A DNA stretch of 8,013 nt from positions 1-8,013 of the forward strand of contig VGSD01000114.1 in NCBI GenBank assembly GCA_016875155.1, written 5' to 3'. Of this stretch, positions 1 to 8,013 are shown piece by piece (the stretch's first letter is position 1; the number at the start of each line of letters is the position of its first letter). The stretch is from Deltaproteobacteria bacterium. Lineage in GTDB: Bacteria; Desulfobacterota; BSN033; UBA1163. Below the pieces are notes generated by a model. It did no database searches and was not told the DNA's origin. It saw only the letters and a list, made by a program, of their open reading frames with translations. The position numbers and the translations under genes were made by a program.

Positions 1-212
1 GGTTTTAGGTTGGCAATGGCCGTTGGATTCCCACACCCCATGGACATGTCGGCGACTTCTTTGGAGAGACTTCCAATCTCTTCCTTGCTGTAAAGGGCTT
101 CCACGTAAGCTTGATTGGATGCATCGTCACTGGGGCAACAACAACTTTTATTCATCTCAGCCAGTTTGGAATACTTTTTCTTTACCGTTTCTTTAATCAC
201 AGTCTTCTTCAT
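1..212 (-). CDS. arsM: ArsM-type arsenite S-adenosylmethionine methyltransferase, N-terminal part
   Basis: Only the first 70 residues are in the window; the rest lies beyond position 1. They match the N-terminus of ArsM-family methyltransferases. A short basic start, VKKKYSKLAEMNKS, leads to a cysteine cluster S-C-C-C (24-26). Then comes ALYSKEEIGSLSKEVADMSMGCGNPTAIANLKP, where the GCGNP motif (59-63) precedes the SAM-binding core, which is not visible here. ArsM transfers methyl groups from SAM to trivalent arsenic held by cysteines. The family also includes members of unproven substrate, especially in anaerobes next to DGC and thioredoxin-like genes, so arsenic is likely but not certain. 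The ATG at 210-212 has a strong AAGGAG. No arsenic regulator or efflux gene is in the window. The name is given on N-terminal similarity only. Confidence 0.8.
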   Translation of the reverse strand, partial: MKKTVIKETVKKKYSKLAEMNKSCCCPSDDASNQAYVEALYSKEEIGSLSKEVADMSMGCGNPTAIANLK

Positions 213-624
213 CTTGTTCTCCTTTCCCTTTGAGGCGGTCCATCCGTTTTGCTACCTCCATGGCTACCATCCGAGCAAGATTAAGATCGAATTTCTCCTT
301 CGTTCCTTTCATATTGAGATGAAGTTCCCCAAGGATATCCGGAATTACCAATCCAAATGCAACGGAGTGACTATATTTCTCTGTTCCGATTTGAGCACAG
401 CGCTTTTCACAACCGTCCAGTGTGATCGTAGGAAAAAGTTGGGCGAAGGTCCTCTCCTGTTCATCCCCGGCCAGGAAAAGAGGAAGGCAAATGGTTGCGG
501 TTTCATCCGGCTTGATCTCTTCCATGAGGATTCGAACGACTGCGCGGGTGAGAGTCCCTTCAGGGATTTCCTCTCCGCAGCAAGCAATGACTCCAATCCG
601 TTTAGGGGATGTCTTTTCAATCAT
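193..624 (-). CDS. DGC-domain putative zinc-binding protein
   Basis: The protein has 143 residues. The N-terminal turn is I-A-C-C-G (Cys15, Cys16) instead of the C-S-G or C-G-G of its paralogs, followed by EGTLTRAVVRIL. A mid-protein Cys46 precedes TLDGCEKRC, with Asp-Gly-Cys at 70-72 and Cys76. The C-terminus is a helix with MVAMEVAKRMDRL and a charged tail ending Asp-Cys-Asp. The gene starts inside the end of the preceding DGC gene (8-base overlap) and its stop lies 20 bases inside the ArsM-like gene, so the last three genes are probably made together. The tandem with 617-1036 looks like an old duplication with considerable divergence. Function is unknown beyond presumed metal binding. Adjacency to an ArsM-type gene makes metalloid or thiol-metal handling worth considering. 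Confidence 0.87.
   Translation of the reverse strand: MIEKTSPKRIGVIACCGEEIPEGTLTRAVVRILMEEIKPDETATICLPLFLAGDEQERTFAQLFPTITLDGCEKRCAQIGTEKYSHSVAFGLVIPDILGELHLNMKGTKEKFDLNLARMVAMEVAKRMDRLKGKGEQDEEDCD
219..224 (-). promoter_or_regulatory. Ribosome binding site of the ArsM-like gene
   Basis: AAGGAG on the minus strand lies 6 bases before the ATG at 210-212. It supports translation of the ArsM-like frame although its first 20 bases overlap the preceding gene. Confidence 0.75.
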
Positions 625-1036
625 CCTTCTCCTCCATTCTGTCCATTTCGTGACAGATTTCATCCGCCAGAAGATGGACCAATCGCTTTCCTCCTTCTTC
701 GAGATGAAGGACGGTACCGAGATCGAACTCATTGGGGTTAAGATATTTATACTTTTTAAAAAGATCCATGATCGTGAATGATATGGGGATTTTTTCAGCC
801 ATTCGTTCAATGTTCTTGTAGGAGCATTTTTTTGCGCAACCATCCACAGAGATGCAGGGATTTTCTTTGAGAAGTTCAATCGCCTCTTCATCTCCTTTGG
901 TCAGAAGGCCGAGGCAGAGAGTCCGGGCTTCATTGGGCCGACGACGTTCCACCACCTCATAAACGGCTTCGCGACAGATGGTCCCATAAGCCTTTCCAAT
1001 GCCGCTACATGGAATCACAACAATGGGTTTCTTCAT
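617..1036 (-). CDS. DGC-domain putative zinc-binding protein
   Basis: The protein has 139 residues from the ATG at 1034-1036, which has GAGGA about 7 bases before it. A TTG at 1061-1063 overlapping the upstream stop would add nine residues and is less likely. The N-terminus shows IPCSGIG (Cys10) and Cys21. Cys41 and Cys61 follow, then Asp-Gly-Cys at 65-67 with Cys71, giving D-G-C-x3-C as in the other DGC proteins here. It lacks the long C-terminal region of the pair at 7110-8013 and is nearer the compact family form. It lies directly after the selenoprotein. Small thioredoxin-like genes and DGC genes are, from memory, often neighbours, which suggests that the two act on each other. The metal and substrate are unknown. 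It overlaps the next DGC gene by 8 bases. Confidence 0.87.
   Translation of the reverse strand: MKKPIVVIPCSGIGKAYGTICREAVYEVVERRRPNEARTLCLGLLTKGDEEAIELLKENPCISVDGCAKKCSYKNIERMAEKIPISFTIMDLFKKYKYLNPNEFDLGTVLHLEEGGKRLVHLLADEICHEMDRMEEKDD
631..635 (-). promoter_or_regulatory. Ribosome binding site deciding the start of the fourth DGC gene
   Basis: GGAGG on the minus strand lies 6 bases before the ATG at 622-624. It fixes this start rather than the far longer open frame reaching back to 891, whose first 89 codons lie inside the preceding gene. Confidence 0.7.
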
Positions 1037-1059
1037 TTTCAATTCCTCAAGGTCCTTTA

Positions 1060-1335
1060 TCAAAGTCTCTGTCGAATGGCTTCGATCAAGGTATCCGAGT
1101 CGGGGATGAAATCGAATACAATTTCTTCATTCATCAAGATGGAAGGGACGTTGGGCTTACGATCCAGTCTCTTTCTCACCTGTTTTAGTCTTTCGAGACC
1201 TTCAGGACTCGATATGTCCATCATCGAATAAGTCAATTGGTCCTTAAAAATTGGAGAGACCTCATCCAGAGCCTCCATTGCCAGTTGGCAGAGAATTCAG
1301 TTGGAGGTTCCCACGATCTCAACAATGACCTTCAT
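1060..1335 (-). CDS. Thioredoxin-like selenoprotein with U-I-L-C site (in-frame UGA)
   Basis: From the ATG at 1333-1335 the frame reads MKVIVEIVGTSN, then TGA at 1297-1299, then ILCQLAMEALDEV and on to a stop at 1060-1062. With TGA as selenocysteine it has 91 residues. The UGA sits exactly where the first Cys of a CxxC redox site is expected, giving U13-I-L-C16. The Cys paralog at 3429-3764 has C-I-P-C at the same place. The strand before the UGA (KVIVEIVG) aligns with KIFIEVIS there. After it come a helix, the cis-Pro loop VPSILMNEEIVFDFIP and a final helix, as in the paralog. Sequence conservation on both sides of the UGA argues against a chance ORF. A gene caller would report only 1060-1278, starting at an internal Met with no active site. 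The alternative is a nonsense mutation. A candidate SECIS hairpin follows the UGA. Confidence 0.85.
1252..1277 (-). promoter_or_regulatory. Candidate bacterial SECIS hairpin
   Basis: On the mRNA, UGGAGG (1277-1272) pairs with UCUCCA (1257-1252) with one G-U pair. Inside it, CUC (1271-1269) pairs with GAG (1263-1261) around the loop UGGAU, leaving GUC (1260-1258) bulged. The hairpin starts 19 bases after the UGA. The GG of the loop lies about 30 bases after it, within the usual distance for bacterial SECIS elements, which normally carry a G in a small apical loop. Competing pairings exist: CCUCCA at 1307-1302 can also pair with UGGAGG, and UGCC/GGCA forms a small hairpin closer to the UGA. The fold was found by eye, without energy calculation. 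Confidence 0.5.
1297..1299 (-). other. Putative selenocysteine codon (UGA)
   Basis: In-frame TGA at codon 13, three residues before a Cys (U-x2-C). It aligns with the first Cys of the C-I-P-C site in the paralogous protein of the same cluster. Confidence 0.82.
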
Positions 1336-1342
1336 TGTATAG

Positions 1343-1347
1343 CCCTT
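1343..1347 (-). promoter_or_regulatory. Ribosome binding site of the selenoprotein gene
   Basis: AAGGG on the minus strand lies 7 bases before the ATG at 1333-1335. A competing in-frame ATG at 1351-1353 has a GGGGGGAG block directly before it, only 2 bases away, so the ATG at 1333-1335 is preferred. Confidence 0.55.
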
Positions 1348-1390
1348 TGTCATATCTCCCCCCGCCCTTTGAGAGGCTACAAGAATTCGC

Positions 1391-1454: not shown

Positions 1455-1967
1455 CTACAAATAAGCGAAAGCAGCATTCTCCCCCCTGTCATACCCCTCC
1501 AGAGGAGTCCCCAGCAGGTGGACGGTCAGGATTTCTCCGAAGAACCAGGTATGGGTTCCCAGGTCAGCGGTCTGTATCACCTTGCACTCGATATTGACTG
1601 GACACTCATCGATCAGGAAGGCGTTCACTTTGCTGGCGCGTAAAGGTGTCAAGCCGGTTTCTTTGAATTTATCTACTTTTCTGCCGGATTGGGTGCCGCA
1701 GTAGTCGATGGCCGGGCGCAAATCGGCTTTGGGGATGTTGACTACGAATTCCCCGTATTTTGTCGCTAATTCGTGACTGTACTGACCCCGGCCAATGCCA
1801 ACGCCCATTATGGGCGGCTTGAAGGAGACAGGATGGACGAAGTGGATCGTGATGATATTGCGATCCTGTTCGCCGCCCACGGTGACCAGAACCACCGGAA
1901 ATTTTGGAAACTGGAAGATCCCCTGAAGTAAGGGGACTTCATGTTTTACGAGTGGAGTTTCTTTCAT
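1455..1967 (-). CDS. Flavin reductase-like FMN-binding split-barrel protein
   Basis: The protein has 170 residues from the ATG at 1965-1967. It matches the flavin reductase-like domain (PF01613): PVVLVTVGGEQDRNIITIHFVHPVSFKPPIMGV at the N-terminal barrel, YSHELATKYGEFVVNIP, the segment CGTQSGRKVDKFKETGL, and a C-terminal strand LGTHTWFFGEILTVHLL. Members bind FMN and either reduce flavin with NAD(P)H or act as flavoredoxin-type electron carriers in anaerobes. Which one applies is not visible. In this cluster it is the obvious flavin electron donor. AAGGG lies about 9 bases before the chosen ATG. A GTG at 1989-1991, 6 bases after the upstream stop, would add eight residues and cannot be excluded. 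It is followed by the only sizeable gap in the window. Confidence 0.87.
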   Translation of the reverse strand: MKETPLVKHEVPLLQGIFQFPKFPVVLVTVGGEQDRNIITIHFVHPVSFKPPIMGVGIGRGQYSHELATKYGEFVVNIPKADLRPAIDYCGTQSGRKVDKFKETGLTPLRASKVNAFLIDECPVNIECKVIQTADLGTHTWFFGEILTVHLLGTPLEGYDRGENAAFAYL

Positions 1968-1997
1968 CGTCTCGTCCCTTTGGGTGTCCACGTTGGT

Positions 1998-2516
1998 TCA
2001 GCCTTCCTTCTGGCTGCGAATTCCGGTGTAGATAGTCCGGCATGTTGGAGAGGCCCCTCCCTTCAGCCCTTTGGGATTTCCGCAAGCCTCGGACTGGAGA
2101 AGTCTATCCCGGTAAGACATGTGGTTTAAAAAGTGAAGAGAAAGATCTATAGGGTTTGGTAGCTGAAGAGAAAAAACCCAGGCATGTCCATAGGGATCTT
2201 CCTGGAAGAGACGGGGATTATCGATCAGAAGCGAGTTGAGGTTGAGGATATGTCCGGGAAGAGGCGTTTCTATATATTTGACTTTGTTTGTTACGGCAAA
2301 GGCCACTGTTTCTCCGGAGGAGACGACTTGTCCTTCCTCGACAAGATATTCCAAACTGATGACCCCACCCGAAAGGATCAGGCCTGCCCGGGTCAAACCA
2401 TGGAGTAGTATTTTACCGCTCCCCTGTGGCTGGATCCATAGTTCAGGGCCCGGAAGAAAGTAACGATCTTCAGGGATCTCTATTCGATGTCCGTTGAATC
2501 CTTCAATGATGAGCAT
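1998..2516 (-). CDS. Second GcvH-like carrier protein, diverged at the lipoyl site
   Basis: This 172-residue protein is a paralog of the one at 6389-6883: IEGFNGHRIEI against LEGFYGQKVEL, ELWIQP against ELWVKP, GLTRAGLILSGG against GVTHAGVILVSG, and SLEYLVEEGQVV against YLEYIVEAGDSL. The modification hairpin reads V-T-N-K-V-K-Y-I-E-T-P-L-P-G-H. Lys78 falls at the lipoyl-lysine position of the paralog, but the preceding acidic residue is gone and the stretch to the conserved proline is one residue shorter. Lipoylation is therefore possible but less certain. The C-terminal extension carries two cysteines. No glycine cleavage gene is nearby. The ATG follows the upstream stop by 17 bases; the nearest purine-rich block (AAAAGGG) is rather far from it, so initiation may be weak or coupled. 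Confidence 0.82.
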   Translation of the reverse strand: MLIIEGFNGHRIEIPEDRYFLPGPELWIQPQGSGKILLHGLTRAGLILSGGVISLEYLVEEGQVVSSGETVAFAVTNKVKYIETPLPGHILNLNSLLIDNPRLFQEDPYGHAWVFSLQLPNPIDLSLHFLNHMSYRDRLLQSEACGNPKGLKGGASPTCRTIYTGIRSQKEG

Positions 2517-2533
2517 TTTGCCATAAGTCCCTT

Positions 2534-3445
2534 TTAAACGTTAACCTCTCGGAATTCGACTGCCACCTGATCTCCTTTTGCTTCGATGATAGCATATGAA
2601 CCTTTATTTCCGTCTGCCGGATTTATTTTGCCGACATTAACAAAATGGCGATTCGGCAGAATTTTGTATAAAGGTTCTCCGGTATGGTTAAAAACATATA
2701 GATGGGCCCAAAACTGCTTCGCGAGTGTTTCAAAGGCCGGAGCGACAGATTCATCCCTAAGGTAATTACTCAAATAGATGATCGCGTTGATGTCAGCCCC
2801 GTACTTATCGTATTCCGAGTACCCCGGAATCTCCTCCATGGCGCCTCCGTGGAAAGCAATCCCTCTAAGATTTCCCAATCGGAATTCAAGAATGACCGGT
2901 AGTTGAGATAAGAATTCTTTCCCCGGGTTAGAACCATTTTCCCTTTGATATATATTGAAGTCGGAAGGGCTAAGTAGAATGATCGCTTTTGACTTGACTA
3001 ATGAGGAGATGATCTCTTTGTGAAAGAACCCTTCTCCAGTAAGATTTCCCAGGCAAATCACTTTATCAAGGTTTTGATGGGCGAGTTCCTCCAGAACCCT
3101 ATTCAGATTTTGAATGTCTCCACGCACACCTGAAAATACACCAATTCGTTTCCATCTCTCATCAACCGTGAGGATTTTCATTTCTACTGCGGGAAGTCCT
3201 TCGATTTCGTCCAATTCGAGAGCTTTCGCTACCTGGTCGGGGCAAGAAGTTCCCTCTCGACAAGGGATACCCTTGAGCAGAGGGATCAGTTCTGAAGCGC
3301 TCCTTCCCTGAAGGAGTTTGGAGACCAGTTGAGCATTTCCTGGGCAACCTCCGCCCAAGAAATTCAGTTCTTTCAGGATTCCTCCTTCAATGTCCAGATG
3401 AATCTCCTTGGGGCAGACACCCGAAGGTCTAAAACGTTTCTTCAT
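2534..3445 (-). CDS. TSCPD-domain protein fused to a degenerate metallophosphoesterase fold
   Basis: The protein has 303 residues in two parts. Residues 1-80 match the short TIGR03905/TSCPD family: G-V-C (Cys11), GGGCPGN (Cys34), Cys62 and the name-giving T-S-C-P-D at 66-70. Residues 95-303 follow the order of YfcE-like calcineurin phosphoesterases, but the metal ligands are mostly replaced. The D-x-H position reads F-S-G-V, the G-D-x position reads L-G-N-L, and the G-N-H-D position reads S-P-S-D. The final G-H-T-H reads N-H-T-G. One H (AFHGG) and some glycines remain. I infer a catalytically dead fold used for binding or regulation. The ATG at 3443-3445 has GGAG about 8 bases before it and overlaps the upstream stop by 17 bases. 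An in-frame ATG at 3482-3484 would give a larger overlap and an unlikely basic leader. Confidence 0.82.
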   Translation of the reverse strand: MKKRFRPSGVCPKEIHLDIEGGILKELNFLGGGCPGNAQLVSKLLQGRSASELIPLLKGIPCREGTSCPDQVAKALELDEIEGLPAVEMKILTVDERWKRIGVFSGVRGDIQNLNRVLEELAHQNLDKVICLGNLTGEGFFHKEIISSLVKSKAIILLSPSDFNIYQRENGSNPGKEFLSQLPVILEFRLGNLRGIAFHGGAMEEIPGYSEYDKYGADINAIIYLSNYLRDESVAPAFETLAKQFWAHLYVFNHTGEPLYKILPNRHFVNVGKINPADGNKGSYAIIEAKGDQVAVEFREVNV

Positions 3446-3764
3446 TTTGCGACTCCATCTCTTTTCCCTCCAATACCCTTTCAATGGTCGTTCTCAGAAG
3501 TTGGGGGCCTGGAATTCTTTCAAAAGCCACTCGCTCGTTGATCAGAATGGAAGGAATGGGGGGATTCTTCCCCAGCTTCTGAGCAAGCTCCAGGTATCGG
3601 TTGGCACCTTCTCGCTCTTTCAGAAGCACCACGCTCCACTCTATGACCCCCTCAAATTCAGGAGCTATCTCCCGCACCGATTTAATGGCATATTCGCAGG
3701 GGATACAATGAGGCCCTTCTGAGATGACTTCTATGAAAATCTTGTCTTTTTGTGCAGGGAGCAT
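3429..3764 (-). CDS. Small thioredoxin-like protein with C-I-P-C site
   Basis: This 111-residue protein has a thioredoxin-like layout. A first strand, KIFIEVIS, leads to a redox turn G-P-H-C-I-P-C with Cys20 and Cys23. A helix (EYAIKSVREIAPEF) and a second strand (EWSVVLL) follow. The cis-proline loop is IPSILINERVAFERIP, then a C-terminal helix. It lacks the W-C-G-P-C motif of classical thioredoxins and is closer to the small glutaredoxin/thioredoxin-fold proteins found beside DGC genes. It is clearly paralogous to the protein at 1060-1335: PxxPSILINE against PxVPSILMNE, and C-I-P-C against U-I-L-C. It probably reduces a disulfide, or accepts a thiol intermediate, on another protein of this cluster. 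The ATG has AGG about 7 bases before it and lies 8 bases after the DUF2284 stop. Confidence 0.85.
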   Translation of the reverse strand: MLPAQKDKIFIEVISEGPHCIPCEYAIKSVREIAPEFEGVIEWSVVLLKEREGANRYLELAQKLGKNPPIPSILINERVAFERIPGPQLLRTTIERVLEGKEMESQNEETF

Positions 3765-3772
3765 TAAAACAC

Positions 3773-4432
3773 CTACTCCAGGAGGACGATGCTATAGTGT
3801 TTATAACAGTCGCCAGTGTTCTGAGCTACTTTGGTTTCCTTTCCGATACGCTGCAAAGTTCGGAAGATGTCAATTGAAAAGGATTCTACCGAAGGCCGTT
3901 TCTCTTTCGGGAAGAGACAGTTCTCCGGGTAAGCGCACTTCTTGCAGAGGGCACACGATTCTGAAGTAAGACCAAAAGCCTTATGATAGCCGAGAAGAAA
4001 AAGCTCCCGTTCAACGGCTACCGTACCTTTCCAGAACTGAACCTGCCTTCGTCTCTTTTTAGAATTGTTTCGGTAGAATTGAGGGTGGTCTGCTTCTCCA
4101 ATTAGAAGTAAGGCTCTTTTATACTCCTTCAAAATCTCCCTTGCCTCCCTCACAGTGACCGTGGCAGGAGGGCAACACCAGTTCGTATTATAGTGGTCGC
4201 ATCCATAGCGACATTTAAGCCGCACCCACCGGGCCACCACAATTTGTGAGGTCTTTATAAAGTGAACCCCTTGGATACCATGGTGTTGGCATAGAGTAAA
4301 GATCCTTTCCTCTAATACGGGGTTTTCCAAGAATGGTTCGTTCCTGGGTAAGGATGACCAGGGTTTGTCATAGGACAGTGGAATTCTGTTCTCTATTAAC
4401 ATCTCAACCCAGCTATGATTTGGGAATAGCAT
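3773..4432 (-). CDS. DUF2284 family cysteine-rich metal-binding protein
   Basis: This 219-residue protein carries the signature of DUF2284 (predicted metal-binding proteins). The first cysteine cluster is C-R-Y-G-C near 74-78, followed by N-W-C-C-P-P (Cys86, Cys87). A second cluster near the C-terminus has Cys160, Cys163, Cys166 and Cys172, spaced C-x2-C-x2-C-x5-C like an iron-sulfur site. No enzymatic activity is established for the family to my knowledge. A lone iron-sulfur or metal-binding redox role is the simplest inference. The ATG at 4430-4432 overlaps the upstream stop by 20 bases and has only a weak ribosome binding site. An ATG at 4400-4402, ten bases after that stop, would remove ten residues without touching any motif. 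I cannot decide between them. The next gene starts 8 bases after the stop. Confidence 0.85.
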   Translation of the reverse strand: MLFPNHSWVEMLIENRIPLSYDKPWSSLPRNEPFLENPVLEERIFTLCQHHGIQGVHFIKTSQIVVARWVRLKCRYGCDHYNTNWCCPPATVTVREAREILKEYKRALLLIGEADHPQFYRNNSKKRRRQVQFWKGTVAVERELFLLGYHKAFGLTSESCALCKKCAYPENCLFPKEKRPSVESFSIDIFRTLQRIGKETKVAQNTGDCYKHYSIVLLE

Positions 4433-6359
4433 CCAGGATATGCTGGATATGAGGAAACTTATCCTTCATATGGGGCAGATGCATAGACTCCATAAATTCT
4501 CTTTGGAACGTTGGATCGACCGCCAGCTCCACATACTCCACCTGCCTTGCAATCGCATTGGCTTCATCTCGTTTAGCCTTATTGAGCAAGGCAATTCTTG
4601 CCCCATCTCCGGCCGCGTTACCGACCGCATAGACATTCTCCATTTCGCAATCGGGGAACATCCCGATTAACATGGCCGATTCCTTATCTATATAGCTTCC
4701 AAAGGCTCCGGCCAAAATTACCCTATCAAGCTTGGTTACACCCAGCCTTTTCATCATTAGCTTGGCCCCCGAATAAAGGGCTCCCTTGGCCAGTTGAACC
4801 GCTCTGACGTCTTTGATAGACATTGTGATGTCACGGCCAATGGAGGTTTCCTTGGCCCAGGCGATAACAAATTCCGATCCATCGTCCCCTTTTCGAACCC
4901 TGGGAGACTGAATGTTCATATTGATATTCCCATTTTTAAGAATGACGCCTGTCCTGAACATTTCCGCTACGGCATCAATGATACCCGAACCGCAGATTCC
5001 TTTGGCTTCGGGATTTTCAATTTCTGTACTCCATTCCTCCTTTCCGATCACTTTGTACTTCACCTCTTTCGTTTCGGGATCAATCTTTATCTTTTCAATG
5101 GCTCCCGGAGCAGCCCTCATCCCAAACTTGATATGGGCACCTTCCAGGGCCGGACCGGTAGCACATGAGGAAGAGATGAGTTTCTGTCGGTTGCCGAGCA
5201 CCAGTTCCCCGTTTGTCCCGATATCGATGACCAGCTCCATGCTGTCCTGATTATAAGGCTCTTCAGCGATGAGTACACCCACATTATCTGCACCGACAAA
5301 CCCAGCTTCGATGGGGAGGATATGGACATAGGCCCCTTCAAAAATATTTAGCCTTAAATCCCTGGCCTTCACGTTAATAGAGTGATGAAGGGTAGGGGGG
5401 AATGGGGCAACCCCGATATGTTCTGGGTAGATGTTCATGAAGAGATGGTGCATGGCTGTATTGCCAACAATCGTCAATTCACAGATATCCTCTGGAGTAA
5501 TACCACCTAAGCTGGAGACATTCTGAATGAGTTTATTGAGGCCATAGATGATCGACCGATTCAGTTTTTCCAAACCGTCCTGATGCATCATGGCGTAAGT
5601 AATCCGGGACATGACATCTTCCCCGTAAGGAACCTGGGGGTTCATCATGGAGTCTACGGCTACAATTGATCCTGTTGTAACATCACACAGATAGGCGGCA
5701 ACAGTCGTCGTTCCAATGTCAATGGCTAAACCATAACCCTTTTCTACAAAGCCAGGTTCTATCTTAACCACTTCCTTTTCATCCCAGATGGTGACCGTCA
5801 CATTCCACTTGCCCTGCCTGATTCGGATGGGCATATCTCTTAGGACGAAGTAGTCAATAGTCAAATGGTCTAAGGCGTAAGTTTTTTTCAGTTCCTGGGT
5901 TAATCGTTCCCAATCTCCCATGGGCTCGTGGAGCGAAGGAGGAGGGAGTTCCACATAGAATTTTCTGATCGCCGGATCCAGTTTGATTGCCCGTTCTGTG
6001 GCCGCCTTTCTGACCACCTGTTTCCCTGCACGGCTTTCTTCAGGAACGAAGACCAAGACGTCTCCGGTTATAGCCGTCACACACCCTAAGCGGTAGCCCT
6101 CGGCCTCTTCCTCGGTCTTGATGAATTTCAGTTCTTCTTCAGTCAAGCCGAGAGGGGTCAAATGTTCCATCTTCGATTCAATGCCATAGCGTTCAAAGAA
6201 CCCCTCTTCTATCCTCACCTTGCACTTCCCGCACTTCTTCTTCTCTCCGCAGACGCCTTCGATGTCCACTCCTAATTCCCTTGACGCTTGAAGAATGGTC
6301 TTGCCCGCCTCCACCTCCCCCCTTCGACCGGAGGGCTGAAAAATTATTTTATGTGTCAT
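4413..6359 (-). CDS. [2Fe-2S]/ASKHA reductive activator of corrinoid proteins (RACo/DUF4445 type)
   Basis: The protein has 648 residues, the usual length for this family. The N-terminus is a plant-type ferredoxin domain with Cys37, Cys43, Cys46 and Cys93 (C-x5-C-x2-C, then a distant C). A linker leads to an ATP-binding ASKHA domain with the phosphate loop DIGTTTVA near residue 214. A second loop, DIGTNGELVLG, lies near 380, and the signature CATGPALEGAHI follows. RACo-type proteins use ATP hydrolysis to push a low-potential electron onto an oxidised Co(II) corrinoid protein and restore Co(I). No corrinoid protein or methyltransferase is visible here, so the partner is unknown. Two ATG codons are adjacent. 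I chose the second because GGGAGG at 6367-6372 lies 7 bases before it, against 4 bases for the first at 6360-6362. The gap to the upstream gene is about 29 bases. Confidence 0.9.
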   Translation of the reverse strand: MTHKIIFQPSGRRGEVEAGKTILQASRELGVDIEGVCGEKKKCGKCKVRIEEGFFERYGIESKMEHLTPLGLTEEELKFIKTEEEAEGYRLGCVTAITGDVLVFVPEESRAGKQVVRKAATERAIKLDPAIRKFYVELPPPSLHEPMGDWERLTQELKKTYALDHLTIDYFVLRDMPIRIRQGKWNVTVTIWDEKEVVKIEPGFVEKGYGLAIDIGTTTVAAYLCDVTTGSIVAVDSMMNPQVPYGEDVMSRITYAMMHQDGLEKLNRSIIYGLNKLIQNVSSLGGITPEDICELTIVGNTAMHHLFMNIYPEHIGVAPFPPTLHHSINVKARDLRLNIFEGAYVHILPIEAGFVGADNVGVLIAEEPYNQDSMELVIDIGTNGELVLGNRQKLISSSCATGPALEGAHIKFGMRAAPGAIEKIKIDPETKEVKYKVIGKEEWSTEIENPEAKGICGSGIIDAVAEMFRTGVILKNGNINMNIQSPRVRKGDDGSEFVIAWAKETSIGRDITMSIKDVRAVQLAKGALYSGAKLMMKRLGVTKLDRVILAGAFGSYIDKESAMLIGMFPDCEMENVYAVGNAAGDGARIALLNKAKRDEANAIARQVEYVELAVDPTFQREFMESMHLPHMKDKFPHIQHILDAIPKS

Positions 6360-6366
6360 CATCGAT

Positions 6367-6372
6367 CCTCCC
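6367..6372 (-). promoter_or_regulatory. Ribosome binding site of the RACo-type gene
   Basis: GGGAGG on the minus strand lies 4 bases before the ATG at 6360-6362 and 7 bases before the ATG at 6357-6359. The spacing favours the second ATG. Confidence 0.65.
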
Positions 6373-6388
6373 TTTCAATACGAATGAT

Positions 6389-6883
6389 CTAACTTTCCTC
6401 TTTCTGATATTTGCTCCTTCTCTGAACTCTTGCTCCGGCTCCACAATGGTCTGACTCTCCACGAAGCAGAGCCTGTTTATATGCCTCAACATCAAGGAAT
6501 ACTTTCTTTGGGTCTATGGGTTCTTTTGGAACCATTAAAAAAAGGGGATTTTCGTAGCAGCGGGTCTCCAAAATAGACGCTTTCTCACCTTTGATGTTTT
6601 CATTAATCTGGGTGATATGTCCAGCGACAGGGGACTGAATGTTAAACATTGCTTTATAAGTTTCTACGAACAGGACATCGTCACCTTTCTCCAGAGAATC
6701 TCCTGCTTCGACGATGTATTCTAAGTAAGTGAATCCGCTGACCAAGATTACACCAGCGTGGGTGACACCAAAGGCCAATTCACCGTCTTTTCCAGTAGGT
6801 TTAACCCATAGTTCCTGAGGAGGATAATAAAGGAGGTCTTCACGGAGTTCGACCTTTTGTCCGTAGAACCCCTCCAGAATCAT
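6389..6883 (-). CDS. GcvH-like lipoyl-domain carrier protein
   Basis: This 164-residue protein resembles glycine cleavage H protein. It has the N-terminal LWVKP, GVTHAGVILVSG and the strand YIVEAGDSLEKGDDV. The modification-site hairpin VETYKAMFNIQSPVAGHI follows, with the candidate lipoylated lysine at Lys77; GcvH has ES-x-KA in the same place. H proteins are usually about 125-130 residues. This one has a C-terminal extension ending in a basic tail with one cysteine. No P, T or L protein of the glycine cleavage system is in the window, so the usual function is unlikely here. The context (sulfur carrier, thioredoxin-like proteins, a second GcvH-like protein) suggests a dedicated lipoyl carrier, as known for lipoate-binding proteins of the sHdr sulfur-oxidation pathway. 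No Hdr gene is seen here. The start is set by an ATGA overlap and a GGAGGA ribosome binding site. Confidence 0.87.
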   Translation of the reverse strand: MILEGFYGQKVELREDLLYYPPQELWVKPTGKDGELAFGVTHAGVILVSGFTYLEYIVEAGDSLEKGDDVLFVETYKAMFNIQSPVAGHITQINENIKGEKASILETRCYENPLFLMVPKEPIDPKKVFLDVEAYKQALLRGESDHCGAGARVQRRSKYQKEES

Positions 6884-7113
6884 CTCTCGCTTCCTCCGGA
6901 AAGAATTCGAAGGATTTCGATTCTGTACCCTGGTTTAAGAAATTTCTGATCGTACTCAGACCTCAAGATCATTTTTCTATTGCAAGCCACCCAATAAGGA
7001 TCTGTCTCCTTTATCCCAAGTTCTTCTAAGAGATCCTGGAGAGTCATCTTTTCTTTAATTTCAATCTGCCTCAGTGAATTTTCAAAAAGGACTTCGACAA
7101 GACCACCTATCAT
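6880..7113 (-). CDS. ThiS/MoaD-like small sulfur-carrier-fold protein
   Basis: This 77-residue protein has the beta-grasp pattern of the ThiS/MoaD family. An N-terminal strand (VEVLFENSLRQIEI) is followed by a helix with LQDLLEELGI, then the core strand WVACNRKMIL, an RSEYDQKFLKPGYRIEI segment very like ThiS, and a Gly-Gly near the C-terminus. In ThiS and MoaD the terminal Gly-Gly is adenylated and becomes a thiocarboxylate that donates sulfur. Here three residues (Ser-Glu-Arg) follow the Gly-Gly, so activation would need trimming, or the protein may act differently. Start and stop both lie in ATGA overlaps with neighbours, and the two Gly codons form the Shine-Dalgarno sequence of the next gene. 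No thiamine or molybdopterin gene is nearby, so I do not assign thiS. No E1-like activating enzyme is visible in the window. Confidence 0.85.
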   Translation of the reverse strand: MIGGLVEVLFENSLRQIEIKEKMTLQDLLEELGIKETDPYWVACNRKMILRSEYDQKFLKPGYRIEILRILSGGSER

Positions 7114-7676
7114 AACTGGATCTCTTTTTCTTCAAGTCCCGGCAATGAATTCATTTCCTTGGGTCTGTAAACTCCTGGGGCTATTTTGATATACCCCAAA
7201 GCCTCCTCGGCATCCACTTCATAATCGCAAAGGATAAGCCCGACGGCATTGATCTTCTGAAGAGTATAATGATAGTTTGGGCTCTCTCTCATTCCTTTAA
7301 CCATCCTTGCAGCCCTCCGGGCGACCTCTCTGGCCAGTCGTTGCCCTGAATCCTCTAAAACCTTTCTCGCCCTCCCAGGGTAGAGGCCAGTTTCAGCGAT
7401 GATCTCCGGAATGTAAATCCTGGCAGCCGGTTTGATCCTGAGCAATCGGAAGAGGTTTGATCCGCATTGGTGGGCACATCCATCAAGGATGATCGTGGGA
7501 AACCTTTCTATCAATTCGATCTCATCGGAGAGTCCCCGGATGAGACGATGCATATCAAGGGTTTCAACTTCCGATTTGAGAAGTTCTTCTAGAAGATAAC
7601 CGGCCAATCGGGTTACGCATGAGACATGTAACCCGATTCCCCCGCACGGGTAAATGGCAACCTTGTCAACGCTCAC
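7110..7676 (-). CDS. DGC-domain putative zinc-binding protein
   Basis: The protein has 188 residues from the GTG at 7674-7676. That start forms a GTGA overlap with the upstream stop and has GGGG a few bases before it. A TTG at 7698-7700 would add eight residues and a longer overlap. Near the N-terminus is a Pro-Cys-Gly-Gly turn (Cys11) followed by Cys20. The name-giving Asp-Gly-Cys is at 65-67, with Cys71 forming D-G-C-x3-C. This matches the DGC domain family (PF08859), whose biochemical role is unknown; zinc binding is presumed from the cysteines. The C-terminal half is shared with the partial gene upstream, and the two are tandem paralogs. It is longer than the two DGC proteins at the far end of the cluster (139 and 143 residues) because of this extra C-terminal region. 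It is coupled to the next gene by an ATGA overlap. Confidence 0.88.
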   Translation of the reverse strand: MSVDKVAIYPCGGIGLHVSCVTRLAGYLLEELLKSEVETLDMHRLIRGLSDEIELIERFPTIILDGCAHQCGSNLFRLLRIKPAARIYIPEIIAETGLYPGRARKVLEDSGQRLAREVARRAARMVKGMRESPNYHYTLQKINAVGLILCDYEVDAEEALGYIKIAPGVYRPKEMNSLPGLEEKEIQL

Positions 7677-8013
7677 GAAATCCCCGATATCCCATCCCAA
7701 AGGGGCGGCATGAACTTTGGCCGATAGATGGCTGGTTCTACCTGGATGTAATCGAAAGATTCAATGGCCTGGTCCGAAAATTCACAGAGCCTCTGATTGA
7801 GCAGTTTTGCTTTTCTTGTTTGATAGTTGTAATTTGGGTTGTCCAACATCCACTGGGCTACTTTAGACACACGCTTGGCGACCTCTTGGGCCAATTTTTC
7901 CCCAACCGCATCTAAAACCTGTCGATTTCGACCAGTGGTCAGCCCGGTTTGGCTGACCACATCAGGGATATAGATTCGTGCGGCCGGCGGAATTCCAATC
8001 AAAGCCATCAGGC
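7673..8013 (-). CDS. DGC-domain putative zinc-binding protein, C-terminal part
   Basis: The frame stays open to the window edge, so the true start lies beyond 8013 and the ATG at 8006-8008 is an internal Met. About 112 residues are visible. They align well with the C-terminal part of the next gene: PAARIYIPDVV against PAARIYIPEII, then TGL..GR, a helix rich in Arg, Lys and Ala, NPNYNYQ against SPNYHYT, and IYRPK against VYRPK. The N-terminal half, where the family's Cys-Gly/Ser-Gly and Asp-Gly-Cys motifs lie, is outside the window, so the family call rests on this paralogy. DGC proteins are small cysteine-rich proteins of unknown activity, presumed to bind zinc. The stop codon overlaps a GTG that probably starts the next gene. 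I am fairly sure of the family and have no evidence for its substrate. Confidence 0.8.
   Translation of the reverse strand, partial: LMALIGIPPAARIYIPDVVSQTGLTTGRNRQVLDAVGEKLAQEVAKRVSKVAQWMLDNPNYNYQTRKAKLLNQRLCEFSDQAIESFDYIQVEPAIYRPKFMPPLWDGISGIS

Follow-up and report, generated by a model that had tools for sequence, protein, structure and literature searches.

Selenoproteins of the thioredoxin (PF00085) and glutaredoxin (PF00462) families carry selenocysteine (Sec) as the first residue of U-x-x-C on a thioredoxin fold, according to the accessible part of PMC13188914, and the selenoprotein families tabulated in the same part of this 2026 review include, after Haft and Tolstoy 2025, NF047660, the HUIPC motif thioredoxin-like (seleno)protein. 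A shorter thioredoxin fold of ~85 residues is found in the MJ0307 family thioredoxins (TIGR00411) and the small archaeal thioredoxins, with 1nho as a solved relative. Among gene clusters, the type 1 mlp clusters described in the accessible part of PMC10418091 bring together a UroD-type methyltransferase, a corrinoid protein and a corrinoid activator, and are proposed there to act in methyl-selenide metabolism. Here we analysed a stretch of 8,013 nucleotides from an uncultured, anaerobic Deltaproteobacteria bacterium (contig VGSD01000114.1; hereafter the window), in which reading through a single in-frame TGA yields a small protein, termed type E, with a U-x-x-C motif. We consider it very probable from sequence comparison that this TGA specifies Sec and that the gene encodes a full-length thioredoxin-fold selenoprotein. 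The features of the gene are as follows.

1060..1353, minus strand: predicted thioredoxin-like selenoprotein gene (type E), 97 aa, from the read-through translation, the L001 and L002 orthologs and an AlphaFold2 model
1297..1299, minus strand: in-frame TGA, putative selenocysteine codon (residue 19); TGA in 3/3 DNA sequences, Cys in 119/120 listed wider relatives
1288..1299, minus strand: redox motif U-I-L-C at the N-terminus of helix 1, from the translation and helix 20-39 of the model
1276..1278, minus strand: ATG used by ORF callers as the start (72-76 aa annotations), start in 16/19 database homologs
1333..1335, minus strand: alternative ATG of the initial annotation (91 aa); Met absent here in L001 and L002

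The codons of the type E gene occupy 1063-1353 of the minus strand and are followed by the stop codon TGA at 1060-1062 and then by TAA; codon 19 of the 97-residue read-through product is the TGA at 1297-1299, within U-I-L-C. The initial annotation had noticed that the open frame at 1060-1278 begins mid-domain and that passing one TGA restores an N-terminus with U-I-L-C. Both observations were borne out: the frame (minus strand) encodes 72 aa and lacks strand 1 of the thioredoxin fold and the redox motif, and read-through of the single upstream TGA from the ATG at 1335 gives MKVIVEIVGTSN-U-ILC...QRL, 91 aa. The proposed start at 1335 behind a ribosome binding site held only in part. AAAGGG, which looks like a ribosome binding site by eye, does lie 7 nt ahead of 1335 on the minus strand, but the start codons of the L001 and L002 genes line up with another in-frame ATG, at 1353. 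Because both relatives have this matching ATG and neither has Met at the 1335 position, the protein of the window probably starts at 1353 and comprises 97 aa.

An AlphaFold2 model built from an alignment of 37 sequences (mean pLDDT 89.6) has the DSSP order strand, helix, strand, helix, strand, strand, helix, with residue 19 directly before helix 20-39; the fold predicted for the type E protein is that of thioredoxin. V-P at residues 69-70, ahead of strand 3, is a candidate cis-Pro loop, in which P70 is invariant and V69 is kept in at least 90% in A2. A Foldseek search against the PDB gave 35 matches at E 0.001 or better, and in the 50 rows listed (query TM 0.55-0.67) thioredoxins predominate, beside a few fusion constructs and a single glutaredoxin. 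The sequence itself matches the solved structures 1j08 (E 0.001) and 1nho (E 0.0017), the latter shared with the small archaeal thioredoxins. All NCBIfam and Pfam models stay below their cut-offs with the type E protein: it scores 19.9 bits with TIGR00411 (cut-off 92.75) and 17 bits with the Glrx-like PF05768 (cut-off 26), has no match to PF00085 or PF00462 up to E 0.1, and has its best NCBIfam match, 52.4 bits or half the cut-off of 105, in NF047660. With this family it shares the fold and the position of U-x-x-C; it differs in having N-U-I-L-C for H-U/C-I-P-C, in scoring below the cut-off, and in forming a separate clade with Cys relatives of the KKKGCMLC kind. A paralog in the window, for which the initial annotation had reported C-I-P-C in agreement with the translation, does belong to NF047660.

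3429..3764, minus strand: Cys paralog, type B, motif HCIPC; NF047660 member at 106.7 bits against the cut-off of 105

In the phylum (395 genomes), the NF047660 search returned ten matching genomes at E 0.001 or better, three of them above the cut-off. The suggestion that the host family is not a standard selenoprotein family is too strong in that NF047660 is already tabulated as a selenoprotein family in the accessible part of PMC13188914, although the type E protein misses the NF047660 cut-off. The type E protein appears to be of a known kind, with NF047660 as the nearest named model, and to form an unlisted subfamily within it. We found no published account of this subfamily in the accessible literature, including PMC13188914, PMC9312934 and PMC12013277; Haft and Tolstoy 2025 may describe it.

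The type E gene is surrounded in the window by the following genes.

3..212, minus strand: start of an ArsM (arsenite methyltransferase) gene, cut by the window end; 74% identical to L001 ArsM
193..1063, minus strand: two DGC-domain genes directly downstream of type E, at 617-1063 (or from the ATG at 1036) and 193-651; PF08859, 52.2 and 53.2 bits, cut-off 27
1455..8011, minus strand: flavin reductase, two GcvH-like proteins, TSCPD, type B thioredoxin-like protein, DUF2284, RACo-like corrinoid activator, small putative ThiS-like protein and two DGC proteins, from family matches; the two DGC genes were assigned by their L001 counterparts and tblastn, and the first is cut by the window end

The L001 ArsM scores 340.4 against the NF008823 cut-off of 263, and the small protein of the cluster is one that we take to be ThiS-like. 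The TSCPD domain (TIGR03905) opens a 304-aa protein (2534-3448, minus strand), the next part of which weakly matches a phosphodiesterase model (14.1 bits, cut-off 117). The same genes recur in genome G001 (Thermodesulfobacteriota MAG Yes70-18, the source of L001), where the order is MtrH-family, NAD(P)-type oxidoreductase, UroD-type, type A thioredoxin-like, UroD-type, corrinoid protein, DGC, DGC and ThiS-like, then GcvH-like, RACo-like activator, DUF2284, type B, TSCPD, GcvH-like, flavin reductase and type E, and finally DGC, DGC, ArsM, methyltransferase, type D, a membrane protein and a CbiQ-type transporter. The membrane protein after type D has no NCBIfam match and is one that we take to be an ECF substrate component. 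Genome G002 (an uncultured proteobacterium MAG of the same class, the source of L002) repeats the G001 order from MtrH to the first DGC past type E, where its contig ends; the flavin reductase was not found in its cluster, and its second GcvH-like gene appears to be in two pieces. The window follows the G001 order from the first DGC to the ArsM start and contains no corrinoid, UroD or MtrH genes, which, judging by the shared gene order, would lie beyond it. A search in all six frames of the window for further read-through genes, with L026 and L028 for comparison, gave no usable signal because the loci are so alike.

The G001 cluster has the UroD-type methyltransferase, corrinoid protein and corrinoid activator of the type 1 mlp clusters. 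It differs from them, as far as the accessible part of PMC10418091 describes them, as follows: First, it contains an MtrH-family gene, whereas the H4folate methyltransferase is missing from the C. ljungdahlii cluster. Second, it adds ArsM, DGC, DUF2284, GcvH-like and several thioredoxin-like genes. A His-Cys-Cys ligand set is linked in the same source to S or Se methyl transfer; of the two UroD-type proteins of G001, UROD_1 has His240, Cys242 and Cys320, and UROD_2 is without the HxC motif. A cluster of this composition seems made for transferring methyl groups onto or off a soft atom (S, Se or As), and the methyl donor may be a methyl-arsenic, methyl-selenium, methyl-sulfur or other compound. 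In a divergent locus, that of genome G160, an ArsM-type gene lies 239 bases downstream of a Cys form of type E. This gene matches NF041537, the ArsM/AhpD selenoprotein, over its first 202 positions (366.1 bits against a cut-off of 510, cut at the first TGA) and continues through three in-frame TGA codons. NF041537 is a different protein from type E, and the L001 ArsM has no internal TGA. No RACo or corrinoid match was found in the 19 kb examined in G160.

L067:9506-11211 (G160): Cys form of type E and ArsM/AhpD-type gene with three TGA codons

In thioredoxin-fold enzymes, the first residue of the motif attacks and the second Cys resolves. By analogy, the type E protein should be a selenol/thiol oxidoreductase with Sec19 attacking and Cys22 resolving: the selenolate of Sec19 would attack an oxidised bond in a partner protein, Cys22 would resolve and free the partner, and the selenenylsulfide would then be re-reduced by a cluster-encoded or a general reductase. 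Likely partners would be ArsM and/or other products of the cluster, namely its Cys-rich DGC, DUF2284 and corrinoid-activation proteins. The activity of ArsM depends on a thioredoxin-type reductant, a requirement on which we found no literature. For the partner and substrate the evidence is the gene neighbourhood, and on it we propose, tentatively and at somewhat below an even chance, a dedicated selenol/thiol reductant for the methyl-transfer cluster proteins. It is nearly an even call that the selenoprotein instead has another role, acting on a general target (e.g. a peroxidase) or in selenium delivery, which is compatible with the Sec reading; the partial resemblance of the cluster to the mlp clusters, proposed for methyl-selenide metabolism in the accessible part of PMC10418091, agrees with this, whereas the conserved place of type E within a methyl-transfer gene cluster and the ArsM-type genes near it in two divergent loci (G001 and G160) argue for the dedicated reductant.

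The Sec reading itself was examined by comparison with related DNA. When one genome per species was scanned (GTDB 220), 186 stretches matched, of which two, L001 and L002, are close relatives, and among the 23 genomes of the class of G001 the matches were limited to G001 and G002. In both loci the gene keeps the TGA in frame and encodes the motif W-P-N-U-I-L-C, so that all three DNA sequences of the Sec form (window, L001 and L002; two from one class) have this TGA. Class-level searches around G068 (five genomes) and G042 (three genomes) gave nothing new, and scans of viral contigs and plasmids found no relative. Over the 11 codons before the TGA, the three sequence pairs differ 6/2/15 times at codon positions 1/2/3, and of their 33 codon pairs 12 show a synonymous and 6 a non-synonymous change; the corresponding values for the stretch upstream of the gene are 20/20/25 and 3 versus 30, in an ungapped comparison that inflates the differences upstream of the gene and whose pairs are not independent. 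The differences ahead of the TGA show the pattern expected of translated sequence, and synonymous changes outnumber non-synonymous ones on both sides of the TGA.

The wider relatives point in the same direction. A profile search retrieved 989 proteins at E 1e-5 or better out of 6238 candidates, and in an alignment of the best 120 of the 989 the TGA column holds Cys in 119, mostly within KKKGCMLC; since ORF callers cannot report Sec inside a frame, this count gives the equivalent residue and not the frequency of Sec. The exception, P0002 (from a 552-base contig, ena), has a gap in this column and Gly in the adjoining one. Cys forms of the type E subfamily, which the NF047660 search of the phylum revealed in G068 and G160, have KKKGCMLC in place of the TSN-U-ILC of the window. 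Of the 23 rows in a tree, five belong to type E (three Sec, two Cys), and a branch supported at 98/97 separates them from the others. Deeper joins are unsafe owing to long branches elsewhere; type B does not form a single group, and the support for types A and D is only 84/73 and 74/65. The initial annotation had placed the TGA at the sole position chemically suited to Sec and had proposed looking for homologs with Cys or UGA there. The 119 Cys-containing relatives of the 120 listed, with Gly in P0002 as the one exception, support this placement, and both of the DNA loci found (L001 and L002) have the TGA.

Other thioredoxin-like paralogs accompany type E. Genome G001 contains types A, B, D and E, and a type C paralog occurs in G042, G068 and, without its cysteines, G179, where L044 (G179:C1:271504-271791) has both active-site cysteines replaced, with YLPS for CLPC. 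Type D (Q-U-A/I-A-C) is a second thioredoxin-like selenoprotein subfamily, with TGA in 3/3 genomes where it was seen.

L026:9758-10033 (G001), minus strand; L064 (G042); L065 and L066 (G068): type D loci, 25-40 bits against the NF047660 cut-off of 105

A gene that starts at the ATG at 1278 and makes a 72-aa product, with the TGA closing an unrelated or decayed upstream frame, is how most of the database homologs are annotated. A search with the full-length query gave 19 homologs, of which 16 are annotated from a Met seven codons past the TGA and two from further in; P0003 is the window's own protein, and P0002 is the sole full-length protein and has Gly at the TGA position, which may be an error or a true variant. 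The active site is therefore missing from 18 of the 19. This reading is very unlikely: the 72-aa form would have neither strand 1 nor the active site, the upstream frame is kept as coding sequence in three genomes, full-length Cys relatives align across it, and by eye no Shine-Dalgarno-like sequence precedes the ATG at 1278.

The machinery for Sec insertion was found in both close relatives. tRNA-Sec scores 82.2 bits in G001 and 79.3 bits in G002 (Rfam cut-off 47), selB 373.9 and 366.9 (cut-off 242.25), and selA 632.2 and 638.4 (cut-off 267.9). G001 has selD twice (391.9 and 368.6, cut-off 125), and G002 has only a fragment at 123.1 bits, below the cut-off.

G001:C295:38347-39267 and G001:C121:29380-30297: two selD genes, one internal TGA each

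Weak matches to such machinery mean little because control genomes also pass the cut-offs (of 14 named control genomes, five for tRNA-Sec, two for selB, one for selA and two for selD). tRNA-Sec scores near 50 bits are not decisive, and those of G001 and G002 are far above. Among five further genomes with relatives of the family, four have tRNA-Sec above the cut-off; the best in G068 is 45.7 against 47, with 150 of 906 first-look candidates scored, despite TGA in its type B and type D genes. G002 also has a second tRNA-Sec match (51.7 bits, near the cut-off of 47) beside a second selB-like gene (346.7 bits) at G002:C188:2306-4121, which could reflect either MAG contamination or a second Sec system. 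In the window, Rfam at the gathering score gave no match and ARAGORN no tRNA, so no tRNA-Sec was seen there; we infer the machinery of the window's own organism from its relatives G001 and G002. A SelA/SelB/SelD/tRNA-Sec pathway would then decode the TGA at 1297-1299 as Sec to give the 97-residue U-x-x-C protein, Sec insertion itself being presumptive, as are the redox partner and the substrate.

The Gly of P0002 would also fit a UGA read as another amino acid, through general reassignment or Trp or Gly read-through. We regard this as highly improbable. TGA terminates 6 of the 13 window genes checked (DGC_1, DGC_2, the ThiS-like gene, GcvH_2, DGC_3 and the type E gene itself), so the genetic code is not simply reassigned; in addition, 119 of the 120 listed relatives have Cys rather than Trp or Gly, and the two closest genomes have Sec machinery. 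A pseudogene or an assembly error at the TGA, with which the sense codon in P0002 would agree, is scarcely credible given the same TGA in three separate sequences and the excess of synonymous changes on both of its sides; a sequencing error is likewise unlikely because separate assemblies carry the TGA.

For the Sec reading we also searched for a SECIS hairpin, the consensus of which in the accessible part of PMC13188914 is a loop of 3-9 nt with G in its first two positions, at a distance of 16-37 nt from the UGA. A lenient test was passed by 51% of random positions. A strict search of the type E gene gave 4-bp stems only, a length reached by 62% of random positions, and single-sequence folds past the TGA did not clearly outdo those of shuffled sequences (z -1.29, 0.06 and -0.55). 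One candidate was drawn by eye.

1255..1276, minus strand: candidate SECIS hairpin GGAGGCY-loop-GGUCUCY with GG in the loop, drawn by eye

Both variable stem pairs of this hairpin are still paired in the three sequences (by eye); it is a candidate and not an established SECIS element. Third-position changes are rarer after the TGA (11/48 codon pairs versus 75/183 elsewhere, Fisher P 0.028, the pairs not being independent), in line with an RNA element there. In the strict search, 5-bp stems, as found at 35% of random positions, were obtained for type B in G042 and G068 and for type D in G001. For type D in G042 and G068 the search gave 8-bp stems with the loops GUC and GGC, 32 nt past the UGA; this length is reached by 3.6% of random positions, and the stems show a G-C to A-U double change by eye.

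Taken as a selenoprotein, type E would be the Sec variant within a larger family, whose members are small thioredoxin-like proteins carrying C-M-L-C. A further, speculative and on balance unlikely, proposal is that types A-E form a specialised thioredoxin-like set, some members of which use Sec, and that each acts at its own step of a so far unreported anaerobic pathway, in which methyl groups pass between a methylated metalloid or chalcogen (As or Se), a corrinoid protein and a pterin, with ArsM in the cluster and with Sec used where the fastest reductant is needed. With this finding, the thioredoxin-like selenoproteins gain a Sec subfamily that appears not to have been listed before. An annotation error that keeps recurring also comes to light, since of 19 close homologs in the databases 18 lack the active site. 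The finding further links selenocysteine with a cluster for corrinoid/arsenic methyl transfer in uncultured Thermodesulfobacteriota, conserved but uncharacterised, and provides concrete proteins to test.
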